NCBI GenBank assembly: GCA_026015185.1
Contig: JAOZGX010000012.1
Span: 1 to 43,793 of the forward strand
Reading direction: 5' to 3'
DNA: 43,793 nucleotides
From: Candidatus Bathyarchaeota archaeon
GTDB taxonomy: Archaea > Thermoproteota > Bathyarchaeia > 40CM-2-53-6 > RBG-13-38-9
The notes beneath the pieces are model-generated. The model saw only the letters and a program-made list of their open reading frames with translations, ran no database searches and was not told the DNA's origin. Position 1 is the stretch's first letter; every line of letters starts with the position of its first letter. The position numbers and the translations under genes were made by a program. This document shows positions 1,644-12,507 of the stretch, one piece after another.

Positions 1644-3608
1644 ATGAAGACAATTAGTTATCGTAAAGCAAGAATTCTTCTTTTCATATCCCTTGCGCTA
1701 TCACTTACAATACCACCACTTTATACATTGGCGCAGGAGCCTGCAGATAGCTATGCAGGTGTAATGCCAACTTCACTCAGAAGACCTCTTGATGCCTATG
1801 GAAAAGGACCTTTCTGTACTAGTTGTCATAATATGATGTATCCTCTTCCTCCTGAAGAACTAGCTCTTTATGCAGGGGAAGTTGTCGAGTCTACTGAGAT
1901 GGAGCCTGGATTAAAAAGGCTTACATGGGATCCAGGAAGAGATGTTGGAGTATTTTACAGTCCTAAAGGAGACAAGATAGTTTGGGTAACTGATAGGTTT
2001 GGTAACTGGACGATTTGGGTAATGAATGAAGATGGAAGCGGAAAGAAGCAATTGACTTCTGAAAGTGTGATAAGCGGCTGGCCTTCTTGGAGTCCTGATG
2101 GCCAAGAGATAACTTACTGGTCATGGGATCCTGCATCTAATTCTTGCGACATATGGAAGATGATGGCTGACGGTAGCTTAAAAGTTCAACTTACAACAGA
2201 TGGTAATTTCAAGGGTGCTCCTAAATGGAGCCCGAAAGGCGACAGGATAGCCTATACCTCAGAATTAACAGGAGACATGGAAGTATACGTTATGAATGAG
2301 GATGGAAGTCAACAACGCCAAATAACCGAAGGGCACTCGCCGGAGAATTTCGTTGAGACGCAAATTATATGGCACCCAAATGGAGAGAGATTGTACTGGA
2401 AAGTTTGTATATTTCCGCTCCCCCAATTCACAACTACGATTATTCCTGATGATGTTGCCTTTGTCGAAATACATATGATTAATGTCGATACTAGCAATGA
2501 TAGAATTCTAACGCCTAAATTACATGAAGCAATTCATAGTGTTAGCCAGGATGGAAAGAAGATAGCGTTTATCTCTCTGCGCTCTCCCAACTATGGTCTA
2601 TGGGTTATGGATGACAATGGATCAGGGCAAAATCGTCTTACGTGGGATGGTCAAGGTGATAGGGCTCCACAAATAAGCCCAAATGGGAAGACGATTGTTT
2701 ATTGGTCCCTGGCATATGGTTTTCAACCCGATATATGGCTCATTAATATCGACGGAAGTGATAAGACCAGATTAACTAAGAGTACATATCATGATGTTTA
2801 TCCTTCTTGGAGTCCTGATGGAAATAAAATTGTATTTGAATCAGATAGAGCCGGAAATTATGATATCTTTCAGATTTCACTGGATAGCTCCATAGATGTA
2901 GATGTAGAATTCGAAGGATGTGCAACTTCAGGAAGTATCAGTAAAGCCTTCATTACTATCAAGCCTTCAATTAATGCTAAAAGTGCACCTAAAGTAGAAA
3001 AAGTTGAATTACGTTTCGACTGGAACAATGAAGGTGAGCATATCGAGAATTTGATTACAGCTTCGCATACTCTCTCTGATCAGAATGAAGTATATCAAAC
3101 TGAAATCGAATTTTCAGTACCTGAAGATACTAAATTAGGATATCACTTCTATGATGTTAAAGTTCAATACTCAGAAGCAGATGGAGCGCTTAAAACATAT
3201 GAACACTCAGCTGGTGATCTAATGATAGGAACGCTTGAGCAACGTCGATGCGAGGTACTTTACAGAGAGCTTAGTACTGAATTGGAACGCATAAATGAAG
3301 AAGCAAAGAGTGAAGGTTATTTTGAATATCTTCTCAAACCAGAAAACGAGTACTTTACGAAAGCTTGTGATGAATATAATGTTGCTAAGTCACTTATGAT
3401 GAAAGGAGATTATGATACTGCTAAATATCATCTTGAGAGAGCAAAAAACATTCTAAATCAAAGTTCGTCTGAAGTATCAATGGAGCGGATTTCATTTAAT
3501 TGGTTGATCATGATAGTATTAATCCCAGTTATTGTTGCAATATCACTTACACTCTGGTTGCCATATTCAAGAAATAAGAGCAAACGGCTTTCTAGCGCGC
3601 GCGCTTGA
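1644..3608 (+). CDS. Membrane-anchored monoheme c protein with TolB-like beta-propeller
   Basis: This 654-aa protein has an N-terminal signal peptide (hydrophobic to about residue 30, LYTLA-QEP), then C58-T-S-C61-H62, a CXXCH heme c motif with methionines two and three residues on. About seven PD40/TolB-like repeats follow, of the type WSPDGxxIxYxS...DIWxMNxDGSxxxxLT, between roughly residues 88 and 420. Then come a beta-rich domain, a charged helical segment (about 530-610) and one membrane helix near the C-terminus (WLIMIVLIPVIVAISLTLW) with a basic tail. The bulk should lie outside the membrane. The function is unknown; electron transfer or a heme-linked sensor/scaffold are possible. It is transcribed divergently from an ArsR gene, with a TATA-like ATTTAAATAC about 45 nt upstream. 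Confidence 0.75.
   Translation: MKTISYRKARILLFISLALSLTIPPLYTLAQEPADSYAGVMPTSLRRPLDAYGKGPFCTSCHNMMYPLPPEELALYAGEVVESTEMEPGLKRLTWDPGRDVGVFYSPKGDKIVWVTDRFGNWTIWVMNEDGSGKKQLTSESVISGWPSWSPDGQEITYWSWDPASNSCDIWKMMADGSLKVQLTTDGNFKGAPKWSPKGDRIAYTSELTGDMEVYVMNEDGSQQRQITEGHSPENFVETQIIWHPNGERLYWKVCIFPLPQFTTTIIPDDVAFVEIHMINVDTSNDRILTPKLHEAIHSVSQDGKKIAFISLRSPNYGLWVMDDNGSGQNRLTWDGQGDRAPQISPNGKTIVYWSLAYGFQPDIWLINIDGSDKTRLTKSTYHDVYPSWSPDGNKIVFESDRAGNYDIFQISLDSSIDVDVEFEGCATSGSISKAFITIKPSINAKSAPKVEKVELRFDWNNEGEHIENLITASHTLSDQNEVYQTEIEFSVPEDTKLGYHFYDVKVQYSEADGALKTYEHSAGDLMIGTLEQRRCEVLYRELSTELERINEEAKSEGYFEYLLKPENEYFTKACDEYNVAKSLMMKGDYDTAKYHLERAKNILNQSSSEVSMERISFNWLIMIVLIPVIVAISLTLWLPYSRNKSKRLSSARA
3594..3605. 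repeat. (GC)5 palindrome at a gene end
   Basis: AGCGCGCGCGCT overlaps the last codons (SSARA) of the heme/propeller gene in otherwise AT-rich DNA. Similar CG-alternating tracts recur at 5589-5602, 5636-5646, 10698-10708, 17993-18000 and 21501-21512. Confidence 0.6.
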
Positions 3609-5874: not shown

Positions 5875-7671
5875 TTGGTTAAATCTTTGCGTCTTTTTCT
5901 AAGGACTAGGAGTTTAGTTCTGCTAGTTTTAATATCCGTTAATGCACTGGTAATTTTGAATTCTCAGCCGAGAGTTTTTGCTAATGGTGCAGTAGATCAG
6001 TCTTGGGCACCAGCAGGGCCTCCGTCGGGTGGGAATGCCATAAAGTCTCATGCACCAATCGGTCAGTCATTCAAACCTACCTTGGACAATCTCGTCGGGG
6101 TGGATGTCTGTATATTGAACAAACCGAGATTGGATGAAAGTGAGACTACTTACTCAGGTGGAAACGGAATCGACTATCACTCACCTATAGGCCAATCCTT
6201 CACTCCAACTTACGCGATATTCACCGGGTTCGAGGTATATCTGATGAGCAATGCTGGCGCCTCCAGAACCGTAACGATGAACCTCCGTAGTGGGACAATT
6301 GGAGGGCCAATAATTGGGTCCGAGAGTTTCTCTGTTCCGGGATCGTCAGCGTGGGAGTGGTATCATATTGACATGCCCTCACCTATCTCGGTGAACCCAG
6401 GTTCACTATATGTTATCGAGTTGGTGGAACCTGTTGGAGGAGTGGCTTGGGGCGGGCATACCCCTGGCACTTACGCAACAGGTAATGCCATTTACAATGC
6501 CGCGAATAACCTCGACTTTGATAATCTATTCAAAACCTTTGGTGCGACGGATAAGATTAAAGCAAACATCCGGTCAGGTTCGATCGGAGGCGCCATCGTT
6601 GGCGCAAGCACCACAACTATTTCGATATTGCCCTCGTTTACTTGGACTAACATCGCCTTCACGCAGCTTAGTCTTACACCAGGCGCGATGTATGTACTGG
6701 AATTAGTTGATCCTCAGGGAAGCACCTCTTGGGCGGTTTCGAGTTCTGGCGGTTATCCTGATGGGACAGCAATAATATCAGGATCCGCTAAGACAAGCGA
6801 TAACTGGTTCAGGACCTACGGAACACCGCCTGCTGCTTTTTCTTTCAGCGCATCCCTGACTACATCCTCCTCCGTAAACGTAACCCAAGGTAATACGGCA
6901 AATTGGGGAGCCCAAGTGAATTTATTAAGTGGAAGCACACAACCTGTTACGTTGACAGTAACTGGGTCTCTCCCTGCGGGCGCTACATCCAACACACCTA
7001 TAACGGATTCACCTAGTTTCACAGCAACCATATCCATCACAACAACAACGAGTACACCGCCTGGAACATACCCGCTAGCGATTAGCGCCTCCGGGGGGTC
7101 CCTAACTGATTCTATTCCAATCGCATTGATAGTTAACCCGTTGCCCCCATCCCCAGATTTCTCGATCAGTTCATCGGCGATAACTATCGCCATATTGCAA
7201 GGATCGAGTGAGGACTCCACTATCTCTGTGACATCACTCAATGGGTTCAATGCGCCAGTGATGATGTCTGTATCATGGATTGGGCCAACTCCTTCAGACG
7301 TGACCTTCAATCTCCCAAGCCCCATAACACCCCCTTCCGACAGCATGACAACGTCCCCACTAACTGTGACAGCCAGCAGTATCGCCTCGACTGGGAGCTA
7401 CACGTTACGGGTCACTGGTACTAGCGGGGTACTGACTCACCAGGTGGACATAACTGTGCAAATAACAGCTGCGGCTACTACAAACGGAACCACGATCGTA
7501 ACGCCTACAGTCACTGTTACCACTGAGCAACCACCGTCTTATCCACCATCCTTCTGGGAACAGATACCAGGAGGAGCAACCACACTACTTATTGCCGTGA
7601 TAGCTATGATTACAATCATCGCTGTAGCTGCTTCCAGACGTGGCCACAAGACCGAAAACATCAGTCGCTAA
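5875..7671 (+). CDS. Secreted, C-terminally anchored surface protein with nested domain and Ig-like repeats
   Basis: 598 aa, TTG start. An N-terminal signal segment (about residues 4-36) and a C-terminal membrane helix (TTLLIAVIAMITIIAVAAS) with a basic RRGHK tail place it on the cell surface. Residues 40-84 plus 224-316 make one copy of a beta-rich domain. Residues 85-223 are a second, full copy inserted inside the first: SGGNxIxxHxPIGQSFxP starts both copies, and RSGxIGG...PGxxYVxELV...DNxFxTxG ends both. Two Ig/NEW3-like domains follow (about 323-420 and 425-530), then a Thr/Pro-rich linker. Its GC content is clearly higher than its neighbours', which hints at transfer. I do not recognise a named family; adhesion or a surface-coat role is a guess. 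Confidence 0.72.
   Translation: MVKSLRLFLRTRSLVLLVLISVNALVILNSQPRVFANGAVDQSWAPAGPPSGGNAIKSHAPIGQSFKPTLDNLVGVDVCILNKPRLDESETTYSGGNGIDYHSPIGQSFTPTYAIFTGFEVYLMSNAGASRTVTMNLRSGTIGGPIIGSESFSVPGSSAWEWYHIDMPSPISVNPGSLYVIELVEPVGGVAWGGHTPGTYATGNAIYNAANNLDFDNLFKTFGATDKIKANIRSGSIGGAIVGASTTTISILPSFTWTNIAFTQLSLTPGAMYVLELVDPQGSTSWAVSSSGGYPDGTAIISGSAKTSDNWFRTYGTPPAAFSFSASLTTSSSVNVTQGNTANWGAQVNLLSGSTQPVTLTVTGSLPAGATSNTPITDSPSFTATISITTTTSTPPGTYPLAISASGGSLTDSIPIALIVNPLPPSPDFSISSSAITIAILQGSSEDSTISVTSLNGFNAPVMMSVSWIGPTPSDVTFNLPSPITPPSDSMTTSPLTVTASSIASTGSYTLRVTGTSGVLTHQVDITVQITAAATTNGTTIVTPTVTVTTEQPPSYPPSFWEQIPGGATTLLIAVIAMITIIAVAASRRGHKTENISR
6127..6543 (+). repeat. Nested copy of the surface-protein domain (139 codons)
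   Basis: Residues 85-223 align over their length with the flanking residues 40-84 joined to 224-316 (139 versus 138 residues). Joining the flanks gives VGVDVCILNKP + ATDKIKANIRSG, which matches TGFEVYLMSNAG + ASRTVTMNLRSG of the inner copy. Boundaries are estimated from the protein alignment and may shift by several codons. Confidence 0.65.
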
Positions 7672-8639: not shown

Positions 8640-9089
8640 GTGGGAAAGACAAAGAGGAAAAAAAACATAGTAAGCAGAAGAGACATCATTCATACTGTTA
8701 CCTCAGCTTCAGTTATTATAGCAGTGATAGCAATTGCGTTATACCAGACTATGCCAGATTTAAACAATCCTAATTCTTTAAACGGAGCGGATAGATTGGA
8801 AATAGTTGCCCCCACTCAATCAGCATTTAATAAGGAACAAATATTACGAATTCATGCTGTTAATGCTACAGGGTATACAGATACAAGTAGAAGTGACGTA
8901 GTTGAGCTTTCGCTTTCAGGCCCTGGTATAGCTGAATTAAATGCCACACAGGTTACATTGAAAGATGGAAAAGCTACAGTTAAGATCTTTGGTGAGCAAG
9001 GCAGAGTAATTGTTACAGCTACATGGATTAGCGGTGAATCCTATTTGAAGTCTACTGAAGCAACAATAACATTTAGTTCATTTGTATAA
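8640..9089 (+). CDS. Twin-arginine-anchored Ig-like protein, cassette copy 1
   Basis: 149 aa, GTG start. The basic N-terminus ends in S12-R13-R14-D-I-I-H followed by one hydrophobic segment (about residues 19-37), which resembles a Tat signal acting as an uncleaved anchor. After a short linker comes a single beta-sandwich domain of about 100 residues (DRLEIVAPTQSAFNKEQ...) with the family mark DTSRSDVVELSL. It would sit outside the membrane. It contains no cysteine or heme motif, so any role in electron transfer is structural, for example holding a partner. The polyferredoxin gene follows 137 nt on. Paralogues are at 10769-11212 and 17545-17928. No named family is recognised. Confidence 0.7.
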   Translation: MGKTKRKKNIVSRRDIIHTVTSASVIIAVIAIALYQTMPDLNNPNSLNGADRLEIVAPTQSAFNKEQILRIHAVNATGYTDTSRSDVVELSLSGPGIAELNATQVTLKDGKATVKIFGEQGRVIVTATWISGESYLKSTEATITFSSFV

Positions 9090-9211
9090 CTTGGAAAGGT
9101 ATAATTCACTGCATTAATTTTTTATATACTTTGCATTGATTATGGCGATTTTACAAAATGTTAAATATAATTTTAATTTAATTTTTTACCTATTAGAGTA
9201 AAATCTATTTT

Positions 9212-9217
9212 GGGGAG
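9212..9217 (+). promoter_or_regulatory. Ribosome binding site deciding the TTG start of polyferredoxin 1
   Basis: GGGGAG lies 9 nt before the TTG at 9227 and is the only good Shine-Dalgarno match near the N-terminus. It supports this start over the ATG two residues into the first helix region. Confidence 0.5.
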
Positions 9218-9226
9218 ATAGATTAA

Positions 9227-10387
9227 TTGAAACCAATAACTAATATGAAAAACTCTATTATTGCTAGTTTTATTGTTGGTTTGTTTTGCTTCTACTTATA
9301 CTTCAGATTAAACATAATTTTAGGACTTTTATTTGGAGTTGGAACAGGCGCAATTATTTTCGCATATCTTCGTTCTGGTAAAGAACAGGAAGTAAGGCTT
9401 TTAGTATTATATATCTTCACCCTAATTTTTTGGATAGGTTTGTTTTCCTTCTTGGCATGGCTTGGGTGGGAATCGATCATAATATGGGTTAGGTACCATC
9501 TGAGAGTTTATTACTTTGAGGGACTTCCCTATGTTGGCACTACAATTGCGCCTTGTATTAGGAATTATCCAGAGATAATTTTGGGGGCTTTATTGTATGG
9601 ATTTCGAGATGGACTTGACTTGTCTGCTGCTGGAATAATGATAGTTCAGCCAGCCACCCTTTCTTTATTTATTTTTGTAGTAGTACCCTACATAGTTGCG
9701 GCCATTGTTCTTGGGAGAGGATGGTGTGGACGATTGTGCTTTTTTGGAGGTGTTGTTGAATTTTTTTCAAGAGTTAAAAAAGAGAGATGGCCTTTGTCAA
9801 GTTTGAGAAAGAAATCTAAGAATCCTGGTTTGGGTGGACTTAGAGACGAAATTAAGGATTTAAGATATGGTCTAGCTTTAGGACTAATATTAATCTCGAT
9901 CGGTTTGGGAATTCCATTTATGTGCGTTACTTGTTGGACATTTCTACTCAGTCCACTTTGGATTGGGGCTCTTCTCATCATCGCTTTTCTAATCTTTGGA
10001 GTAATTCTTCCATTAATGACTAAGAGAAGATGGTTCTGCATTTTTTGCCCTGTGGGAGCTTTGCTTTCAGTCGTTGAAGGCGTATCGTTATTTAGGGTAA
10101 GAACAAGTAGAAAATCATGCGAAAAATGTAATGATTGTATAGAATCCTGTAAAACATATGCTATGACACCAACTGCTATAGAAAAAACTGGAAGACCAAC
10201 TCTAGAATGTATTAAATGTGGTGAGTGTATAAGTGCATGTCCTAAAGATCGTATAGACCTCTATATACGCGGTACCAATATTAAGGCAAGGTCGTGGTTC
10301 ATGCCTATAACGGTGGTTGCTGGTTTCGCTTTATATATGTGGTTCGTCATAATCATAATCCAAATCTTACCATCATTGATTAGCTAG
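9227..10387 (+). CDS. NapH/MauN-type membrane polyferredoxin, cassette copy 1
   Basis: 386 aa with about six membrane helices before and one after a cytoplasm-type 2[4Fe-4S] ferredoxin domain. Cysteines: GWC167GRLC171 and FC271IFC274P are the paired motifs of NapH/NosR/MauN-like electron carriers; C298-x2-C-x2-C-x3-C308 and C328-x2-C-x2-C-x3-C338-P are the ferredoxin clusters; C110 and an intramembrane C233-x2-C236 (MCVTCW) are extra. The first pair lacks the usual CP. Such proteins move electrons between the quinone pool or cytoplasm and extracytoplasmic partners. The partner is not known here, but the preceding Tat-anchored Ig-like protein is always paired with it in this window. Confidence 0.82.
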   Translation: MKPITNMKNSIIASFIVGLFCFYLYFRLNIILGLLFGVGTGAIIFAYLRSGKEQEVRLLVLYIFTLIFWIGLFSFLAWLGWESIIIWVRYHLRVYYFEGLPYVGTTIAPCIRNYPEIILGALLYGFRDGLDLSAAGIMIVQPATLSLFIFVVVPYIVAAIVLGRGWCGRLCFFGGVVEFFSRVKKERWPLSSLRKKSKNPGLGGLRDEIKDLRYGLALGLILISIGLGIPFMCVTCWTFLLSPLWIGALLIIAFLIFGVILPLMTKRRWFCIFCPVGALLSVVEGVSLFRVRTSRKSCEKCNDCIESCKTYAMTPTAIEKTGRPTLECIKCGECISACPKDRIDLYIRGTNIKARSWFMPITVVAGFALYMWFVIIIIQILPSLIS

Positions 10388-10768: not shown

Positions 10769-11212
10769 GTGGCAAAGACAAATAAGAAAAGAAGTATAAG
10801 GAGCAGAAGGGACATTTTTCATGCCATCATTTCAGCCTTAGTTGTAATCGCAGTGATAGTAATTGCGTTATATCAGGGTATGTCAGAGTTTGTTCCCTCA
10901 TCACCTGGAGCGGATAGATTAGAAATAGTTGCCCCAAATCAATCAGCATTTAATAAGGAACAAATATTACGAATTCATGCTGTTAATGCTACAGGGTATA
11001 CAGATACAAGTAGAAGTGACGTAGTTGAGCTTACGCTTTTGGGTCCTGGCATAGCTAAATTAAATACTACACAGGTTACATTGAAAGAAGGAATGGCCAC
11101 AGCTATGATTTATGGTGAGAGAGGTAGGGTAACTATAATAGCTACTTGGATTAGCGGCGAATCCCCTTTGAAAAATGCTGAAGCAGAAATAACATTCAGT
11201 TCATTTGTATGA
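10769..11212 (+). CDS. Twin-arginine-anchored Ig-like protein, cassette copy 2
   Basis: 147 aa, GTG start, same layout as the copy at 8640: basic N-terminus, S12-R13-R14-D-I-F-H, one hydrophobic anchor, short linker, one Ig-like domain with DTSRSDVVELTL. The phenylalanine after RR makes the Tat-like motif better here than in copy 1. The two proteins differ mainly in the linker and in the last third. A 94-nt stretch (10939-11032) is identical in DNA to copy 1, which is unexpected given the divergence on both sides. It is followed after 131 nt by its own polyferredoxin gene. Confidence 0.7.
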   Translation: MAKTNKKRSIRSRRDIFHAIISALVVIAVIVIALYQGMSEFVPSSPGADRLEIVAPNQSAFNKEQILRIHAVNATGYTDTSRSDVVELTLLGPGIAKLNTTQVTLKEGMATAMIYGERGRVTIIATWISGESPLKNAEAEITFSSFV

Positions 11213-11343
11213 CCTAGGCGTATGCAACGCAGTCTTAGATTTCTTTTTGCGTTCATAAATGATGAGCACTTAACCATTAAATAATATAACACATTGTTAA
11301 TTCTAAGATTCTCTATTCAAATAATAGTGGGTAAAATATTCAA

Positions 11344-12507
11344 TTGAAGGCAATTACAAGCTTTAGCAACTCCATAATTGCTGGAATCATTGTTGGTTTA
11401 TTCTGTTTCTACTTGTACTTTAGACTAAACCTTATTTTAGGATTTATATTTGGAATCGGAGCAGGTGCAATTGTTTTTGCATATCTTCGTACTGGTAAAG
11501 AACAGGAAACAAGGCGCTTAGTATTATTTATTTTTACTTTTATTTTTTGGATAAGCATGTTCTCCTTTTTGGGATGGATGGGTTCAGAATCGATAATAAT
11601 GTGGACTGAGCGACATCTAAGGGTTTATTACTATGAGGGGCTTCCTTACTGTGGTACTACTTTAGCACCTTGTATTAGGAATTATCCTGAGATAATTTTA
11701 GGATCTTTATTTTATGAGTTTCGAGATGGACTTGAGTTATCTGCAGCTGGAATAAAAATAACTTCACCAGCCACGTTGTCTTTATTCGTTCTTGCAATAG
11801 TACCTTACATTGCCACGGCTATTATTTTTGGAAGGGGATGGTGTGGAAGGCTTTGCTTTTTAGGGGGTATTGTTGAATTCTTCGGGAGTGGAAAAAAAAG
11901 CAGATGGACTTTGTCAAAACTGAGACAGAAATCTAAGAACCCTCATTTGGGTGGATTAAGAGCAGAAGTAAAAGATATACGATATGGCCTAGCTCTAGGA
12001 TTGGTGTTACTCTCAATTGGTTTGGCCATTCCGTTCATGTGCATCACTTGTTGGTCATTTATATTCAATCTATTGTGGATCGGTCTTCTTTTTATTGTAG
12101 CATTTCTTGTGTTAGGAGTAATACTGCCTTTTATGACCAAGAAAAGATGGTTCTGCATTTTATGCCCAATAGGGGCTTTGCTTTCAATTGTTGAGGGTAT
12201 CTCATTCTTTAGGATAAAAATAGACAAAAAATCATGTGAGAAATGTAATGACTGTATAAAAGCCTGTCAGACATATGCTATGACACCAAAAGCGGTGGAA
12301 AAAACTAGAAAACCAACTCTAGAATGTATTAAATGTGGCGAATGTATTAGTGCTTGTCCTAGCGATTCTGTAGACCTCTATATACACGGCACCAATATAA
12401 AAGCAAGGTCATGGTTCATGCCGCTTACGGTGGCTGCTGGCTTCACTTTGTATATGTGGTTTGTGCTGATGATAATTCAAGTCGTACCAAGATTACTTAA
12501 CCTATAA
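11344..12507 (+). CDS. NapH/MauN-type membrane polyferredoxin, cassette copy 2
   Basis: 387 aa, TTG start, close paralogue of the protein at 9227-10387, aligning without large gaps. All cysteine motifs are kept: GRGWCGRLCF, the intramembrane MCITCW, FCILCPIGA, and both ferredoxin clusters (CEKCNDCIKAC and CIKCGECISACP). Conservation of every cysteine in two diverged copies says both are functional. Changes concentrate in the loops and in helices 3 and 4. No strong Shine-Dalgarno sequence precedes the start, unlike copy 1. The direct redox partners are unknown; the molybdenum hydroxylase operon on the opposite strand, about 500 nt on, is a candidate. Confidence 0.82.
   Translation: MKAITSFSNSIIAGIIVGLFCFYLYFRLNLILGFIFGIGAGAIVFAYLRTGKEQETRRLVLFIFTFIFWISMFSFLGWMGSESIIMWTERHLRVYYYEGLPYCGTTLAPCIRNYPEIILGSLFYEFRDGLELSAAGIKITSPATLSLFVLAIVPYIATAIIFGRGWCGRLCFLGGIVEFFGSGKKSRWTLSKLRQKSKNPHLGGLRAEVKDIRYGLALGLVLLSIGLAIPFMCITCWSFIFNLLWIGLLFIVAFLVLGVILPFMTKKRWFCILCPIGALLSIVEGISFFRIKIDKKSCEKCNDCIKACQTYAMTPKAVEKTRKPTLECIKCGECISACPSDSVDLYIHGTNIKARSWFMPLTVAAGFTLYMWFVLMIIQVVPRLLNL

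Follow-up and report, generated by a model that had tools for sequence, protein, structure and literature searches.

A surface-protein domain apparently nested within its own homologue in a Bathyarchaeota genome

Domains inserted into copies of themselves

Domains frequently occur as inserts within other domains, and where a surface domain is repeated the copies usually follow one another in tandem. In a survey of 48,551 insertion events in ECOD, 65.8% join different homologous groups, from which it follows by our subtraction that about one third occur within a single homologous group (PMC13114784). The HABAS domains of bacterial RNA polymerase β′ (Si3) are a described case of recursive insertion into copies of the same domain (PMC11515920). 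The gene considered here lies in a stretch of 43,793 nucleotides from a Candidatus Bathyarchaeota archaeon (contig JAOZGX010000012.1; the stretch as a whole is termed the window). It resembles the HABAS case in that a domain is found inside a copy of itself and in that the modules are beta-rich, but the HABAS fold is unrelated, belongs to an intracellular enzyme and occurs in up to nine additional copies with partial strand swapping (PMC11515920), whereas the window gene has one level of nesting, two copies and a product that is probably a surface protein. A preliminary description of the locus called the arrangement rare, which stands for this domain family but not generally, as the HABAS domains themselves nest in homologues (PMC11515920). 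Our literature search on self-insertion of jelly-roll or Ig domains found no publication. Self-nesting is accordingly already known, and as far as our searches reach what is new is its occurrence in this domain family and in archaeal surface proteins.

The nearest named families are choice-of-anchor R (NF041539) and DUF4082 (PF13313), whose members are found in a similar setting, in secreted and often anchored proteins. The members examined have single or tandem copies, in contrast to the nested domain of the window. The nested part has no named family over cut-off in Pfam or NCBIfam, and the whole window protein gives no match to NF041539 or PF13313 at E 1. The inner copy alone matches DUF4082 with 15.9 bits (E 0.013), below the curated cut-off of 28.4, and two single-copy relatives also stay below cut-off, one (L031) matching NF041539 at E 1.4e-4 and the other (L030) matching DUF4082 at E 0.0013.

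A complete copy between two complementary pieces

The ORF at 5875-7671 on the forward strand has a TTG start and encodes 598 amino acids. Hydropathy marks two hydrophobic segments, around residues 7-32 and 563-590. The first falls within a putative N-terminal signal sequence (residues 1-37; 5875-5985), and the second is a predicted C-terminal transmembrane segment (7561-7644) followed by the basic residues SRRGHK. Between them, the nested block (residues 41-316; 5995-6822) is followed by two Ig-like repeats. Repeat 1 (residues 317-425; 6823-7149), assigned to a stalk, scores 102 against repeat 2 and is below cut-off for NF058595; it has no counterpart in the relative L042 discussed below, where the alignment shows a gap. 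Repeat 2 (residues 426-530; 7150-7464) is also present in L042 and in two single-copy proteins (G003 and G007). Because of the hydrophobic N-terminus, the Ig-like repeats and the C-terminal helix with its basic residues, the product is likely to be an exported, membrane-anchored surface protein. At third codon positions the gene has a GC content of 0.46, compared with 0.25-0.32 for the genes immediately beside it and 0.52-0.54 for the L042 contig; this pattern fits either horizontal acquisition from a relative of higher GC or a composition bias of surface proteins.

The preliminary description took residues 85-223 for a complete domain copy and residues 40-84 and 224-316 for the halves of a second one, with the two copies matching across the insertion point. 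Self-alignment bears this out with only a small refinement of the first half, the best boundaries being residues 41-82 for the outer N-part (5995-6120), 85/86-223 for the inner copy (6127-6543 when counted from residue 85) and 224-316 for the outer C-part (6544-6822). In local alignment with 1000 shuffles, the N-part scores 83 against the inner copy (shuffle best 46) and the C-part 165 (shuffle best 57), while the reconstructed outer copy scores 239 (shuffle best 63 in 1000) in an alignment that runs through the junction with one gap of a single residue at that point.

Independently of these cuts, an HMM made from five single-copy homologues, none of them from the window, was applied to the whole protein. 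It matches residues 52-80 (profile positions 19-47, i-E 2.7e-6), 96-224 (20-151, i-E 1.4e-27) and 224-316 (55-150, i-E 3.9e-19). The limits of the inner copy are those at which the single-copy domain itself naturally begins and ends, and the outer copy is broken between profile positions 47 and 55, at a hairpin loop joining two strands, so that its two pieces complement each other with a discrepancy of no more than 8 positions of the profile, or about one hairpin loop. The N / full / C order and the complementarity of the outer pieces are thus evident at the level of sequence, with a host interrupted by a complete domain as expected of a nested A1-B-A2 insertion. Host and insert are homologous, and they are more similar to one another (37-43% identity) than to the single-copy relatives (27-35%), also as expected of such an insertion. 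Taken with the structural predictions below, we hold it highly probable that one domain copy sits inside a hairpin loop of a homologous copy.

An alternative history starts from three tandem copies, of which the first lost its C-part and the third its N-part, leaving complementary remnants. The wider choice-of-anchor R family does include tandem copies (in-frame match pairs G184:C1 and G088:C81), but this course requires two deletions whose ends coincide, to a few residues, in one hairpin and which leave no remnant, and the HMM gave no further significant match in the window protein that could be a trace of a third copy. Three-copy homologues, which the preliminary description named as the observation that would point to deletion, were not found in the 257 genomes of the class, the 398 of the phylum and the 228 of the phylum to which L042 is assigned. 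Such a history seems very unlikely, and its product would still be nested; only the history would differ.

Single unsplit copies, which the preliminary description had proposed looking for, are present in the same archaeal family, in anchored proteins of 210 and 227 amino acids (G006) and in proteins of 639 and 621 amino acids (G003 and G007), in which they lie 3′ of a DNRLRE/CBM96-like domain. At four such loci (L030, L031, L028 and L029) the domain is 27-35% identical to that of the window and the proteins are likewise exported or anchored, but they have one copy without insertion in place of the nested pair. L028 and L029 have a downstream Ig-like repeat in common with the window protein and differ from it in the DNRLRE/CBM96-like domain in front. 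Verrucomicrobia also have more distant single copies, as do phage-tail-like proteins from other members of the class (L036, 952-2817, and L037, 895-2034). A tblastn search against phages and plasmids gave no match, a scan of viral contigs one weak and irrelevant match, and a sequence search of the PDB no credible relative, its top row being a PCNA chain over 46 positions.

A divergent relative and the age of the insertion

Searches that took the inner domain by itself or a small profile of it as query covered the 257 class genomes, the 398 phylum genomes and GTDB contigs. The contig scan using the inner copy alone gave no match, and the alignment-based scan picked up a relative with the identical N / full / C order on a second contig, JAUQYT010000234.1 (locus L042). 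These two are the proteins found to have the nested architecture, that of L042 being cut by the contig end, and no further nested protein was found in the 228-genome set of L042's labelled phylum. That label is Candidatus Njordarchaeum. A neighbouring peroxiredoxin is 73% identical to that of a genome of the window's class, and within the labelled phylum its best match in another genome reaches 66%, so the label may not name the true host of L042. The C-terminus of the L042 protein is unlike that of the window protein and, by eye in comparison with G003, resembles a CFI-box.

The two nested proteins are 62-67% identical per domain, or by part 74% in the N-part, 68% in the inner copy and 57% in the C-part. 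With dN of 0.17, 0.20 and 0.38 for N-part, inner copy and C-part, and dS of 1.0 or more, or saturated, all three parts are, judged from these substitution rates, kept under purifying selection. The window genome is in 118 contigs and MAG-like, and a misassembled or collapsed tandem repeat is the sort of artefact that might be suspected in it. The independent L042 contig, with the same order under purifying selection throughout, rules this out; moreover, the gene has no long DNA repeat for an assembler to collapse, and the chance of an artefact is negligible.

A tree was built from the reconstructed outer copies, the inner copies and the five single-copy homologues. Its outer and inner copies fall into a single clade (91/95), in which the two outer copies are sisters and so are the two inner ones (89/92 and 99/97). 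The N-part and C-part analysed separately give the same relations. As each copy pairs with its counterpart, the insertion would be older than the split between the window gene and L042. The origin suggested is a single event in which a whole copy of the domain was duplicated and inserted into the hairpin loop that links the strand ending ...ILN to the strand starting KIKANIRS.

Sequence order does not distinguish this from two half-domain duplications, in which the N half was doubled and then the C half to give N-N-C-C, the resulting order being identical. That route, though, would take two events that broke the domain at one and the same point, and the N and C parts are of similar relative age: outer/inner identity is 42-47% in N, against 65-73% between orthologues, and 34-42% in C, against 57-67%. 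No N-N-C or N-C-C relatives were seen. A stepwise doubling of halves is improbable on these grounds, and the single insertion is preferred.

Predicted fold and possible role

Structure prediction of residues 38-318, the check put forward in the preliminary description, agrees with nesting. The AlphaFold2 model (pLDDT 86.2, pTM 0.79; the outer copy was represented by two sequences only in the alignment) has a matching series of sandwich strands in both copies, four of them in the N-part. In a control with the C-part omitted and the same homologues in the alignment, pLDDT of the N-part falls to 35-55 (from 71/64/80/92 to 35/36/41/50 in the first four 10-residue blocks) and all four of its strands are lost, while the inner copy is unaffected, with pLDDT of 82-97. 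By this truncation the N-part requires the C-part for its fold, and the inner copy requires neither. Three partial or tandem domains would not yield such a pattern. In the prediction, then, the host pieces fold jointly, the N-part and C-part apparently packing into one domain, and the control supports independent folding of the insert, as expected of a nested insertion.

The same order could in principle be read with strands exchanged, the N-part of each copy pairing with the C-part of the other, since some recursively inserted HABAS domains exchange secondary-structure elements (PMC11515920). Here, however, the inner hairpin loop has about its native length, as in the single-copy homologues, and the inner copy keeps its high pLDDT in the AlphaFold2 control in which the N-part, deprived of the C-part, is disordered. 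Exchange of this kind is correspondingly hard to credit beside plain nesting.

Each domain is modelled as a jelly-roll-like beta-sandwich. The best compact solved folds found by Foldseek are PHR domains and carbohydrate-binding modules, with TM-scores of about 0.4-0.57. Like the modelled window domain, the PHR domains (BTBD2, MYCBP2), BT0996-C and CBM6 are jelly-roll-like sandwiches of about 130-160 residues (target-normalized TM up to 0.57), but their identity to it is 10-18% and they are not nested, and the PHR domains are in intracellular proteins, unlike the probable surface protein of the window. The carbohydrate-binding modules (BT0996-C, target TM 0.54; CBM6, 0.44) are not singled out, as the scores of PHR domains are just as good. 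Among viral models the Foldseek matches were for the most part phage tail proteins at low TM-score, read as reflecting the common jelly-roll fold only.

From these features a picture of the protein can be proposed. After export, the C-terminal helix would hold the protein in the membrane, the Ig-like repeats would form a stalk, and the outer domain would stand on top of it. The tip would comprise two homologous jelly-roll-like beta-sandwiches, one set into a beta-hairpin loop of its partner. The inner domain, tethered through two short linkers of about 2-4 residues, would be a rigid distal tip, held more stiffly and in a better defined orientation than one tandem linker would allow. Sandwiches of this type often serve to bind ligands. 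Going by the low-scoring fold resemblance described above, and with low confidence, the inner-domain tip of this anchored stalk protein may bind a surface ligand, for example a glycan. That self-nesting is a recurrent principle in archaeal surface tips, with a fixed paralogue hairpin giving a rigid two-linker head and the inner copy freed for ligand recognition, is a speculation that we think doubtful. Though no new kind of system is revealed, host, insert, a divergent relative with the insertion and unsplit homologues are all on hand in one natural case, which makes it a useful test object for the origin of domain insertions and for asking if a surface protein becomes stiffer or more specialised through two-linker nesting.

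Other genes of the window also encode putative membrane-associated proteins. Upstream, 1644-3608 encodes a PD40/TolB-like propeller protein with a transmembrane segment at the C-terminus; a CTSCH motif close to the N-terminus may be a haem c site. Downstream, a two-gene unit occurs twice in tandem (8640-10387 and 10769-12507), each time pairing an anchored protein of about 148 amino acids that has no Pfam match with a membrane 4Fe-4S protein of 386/387 amino acids resembling NapH.
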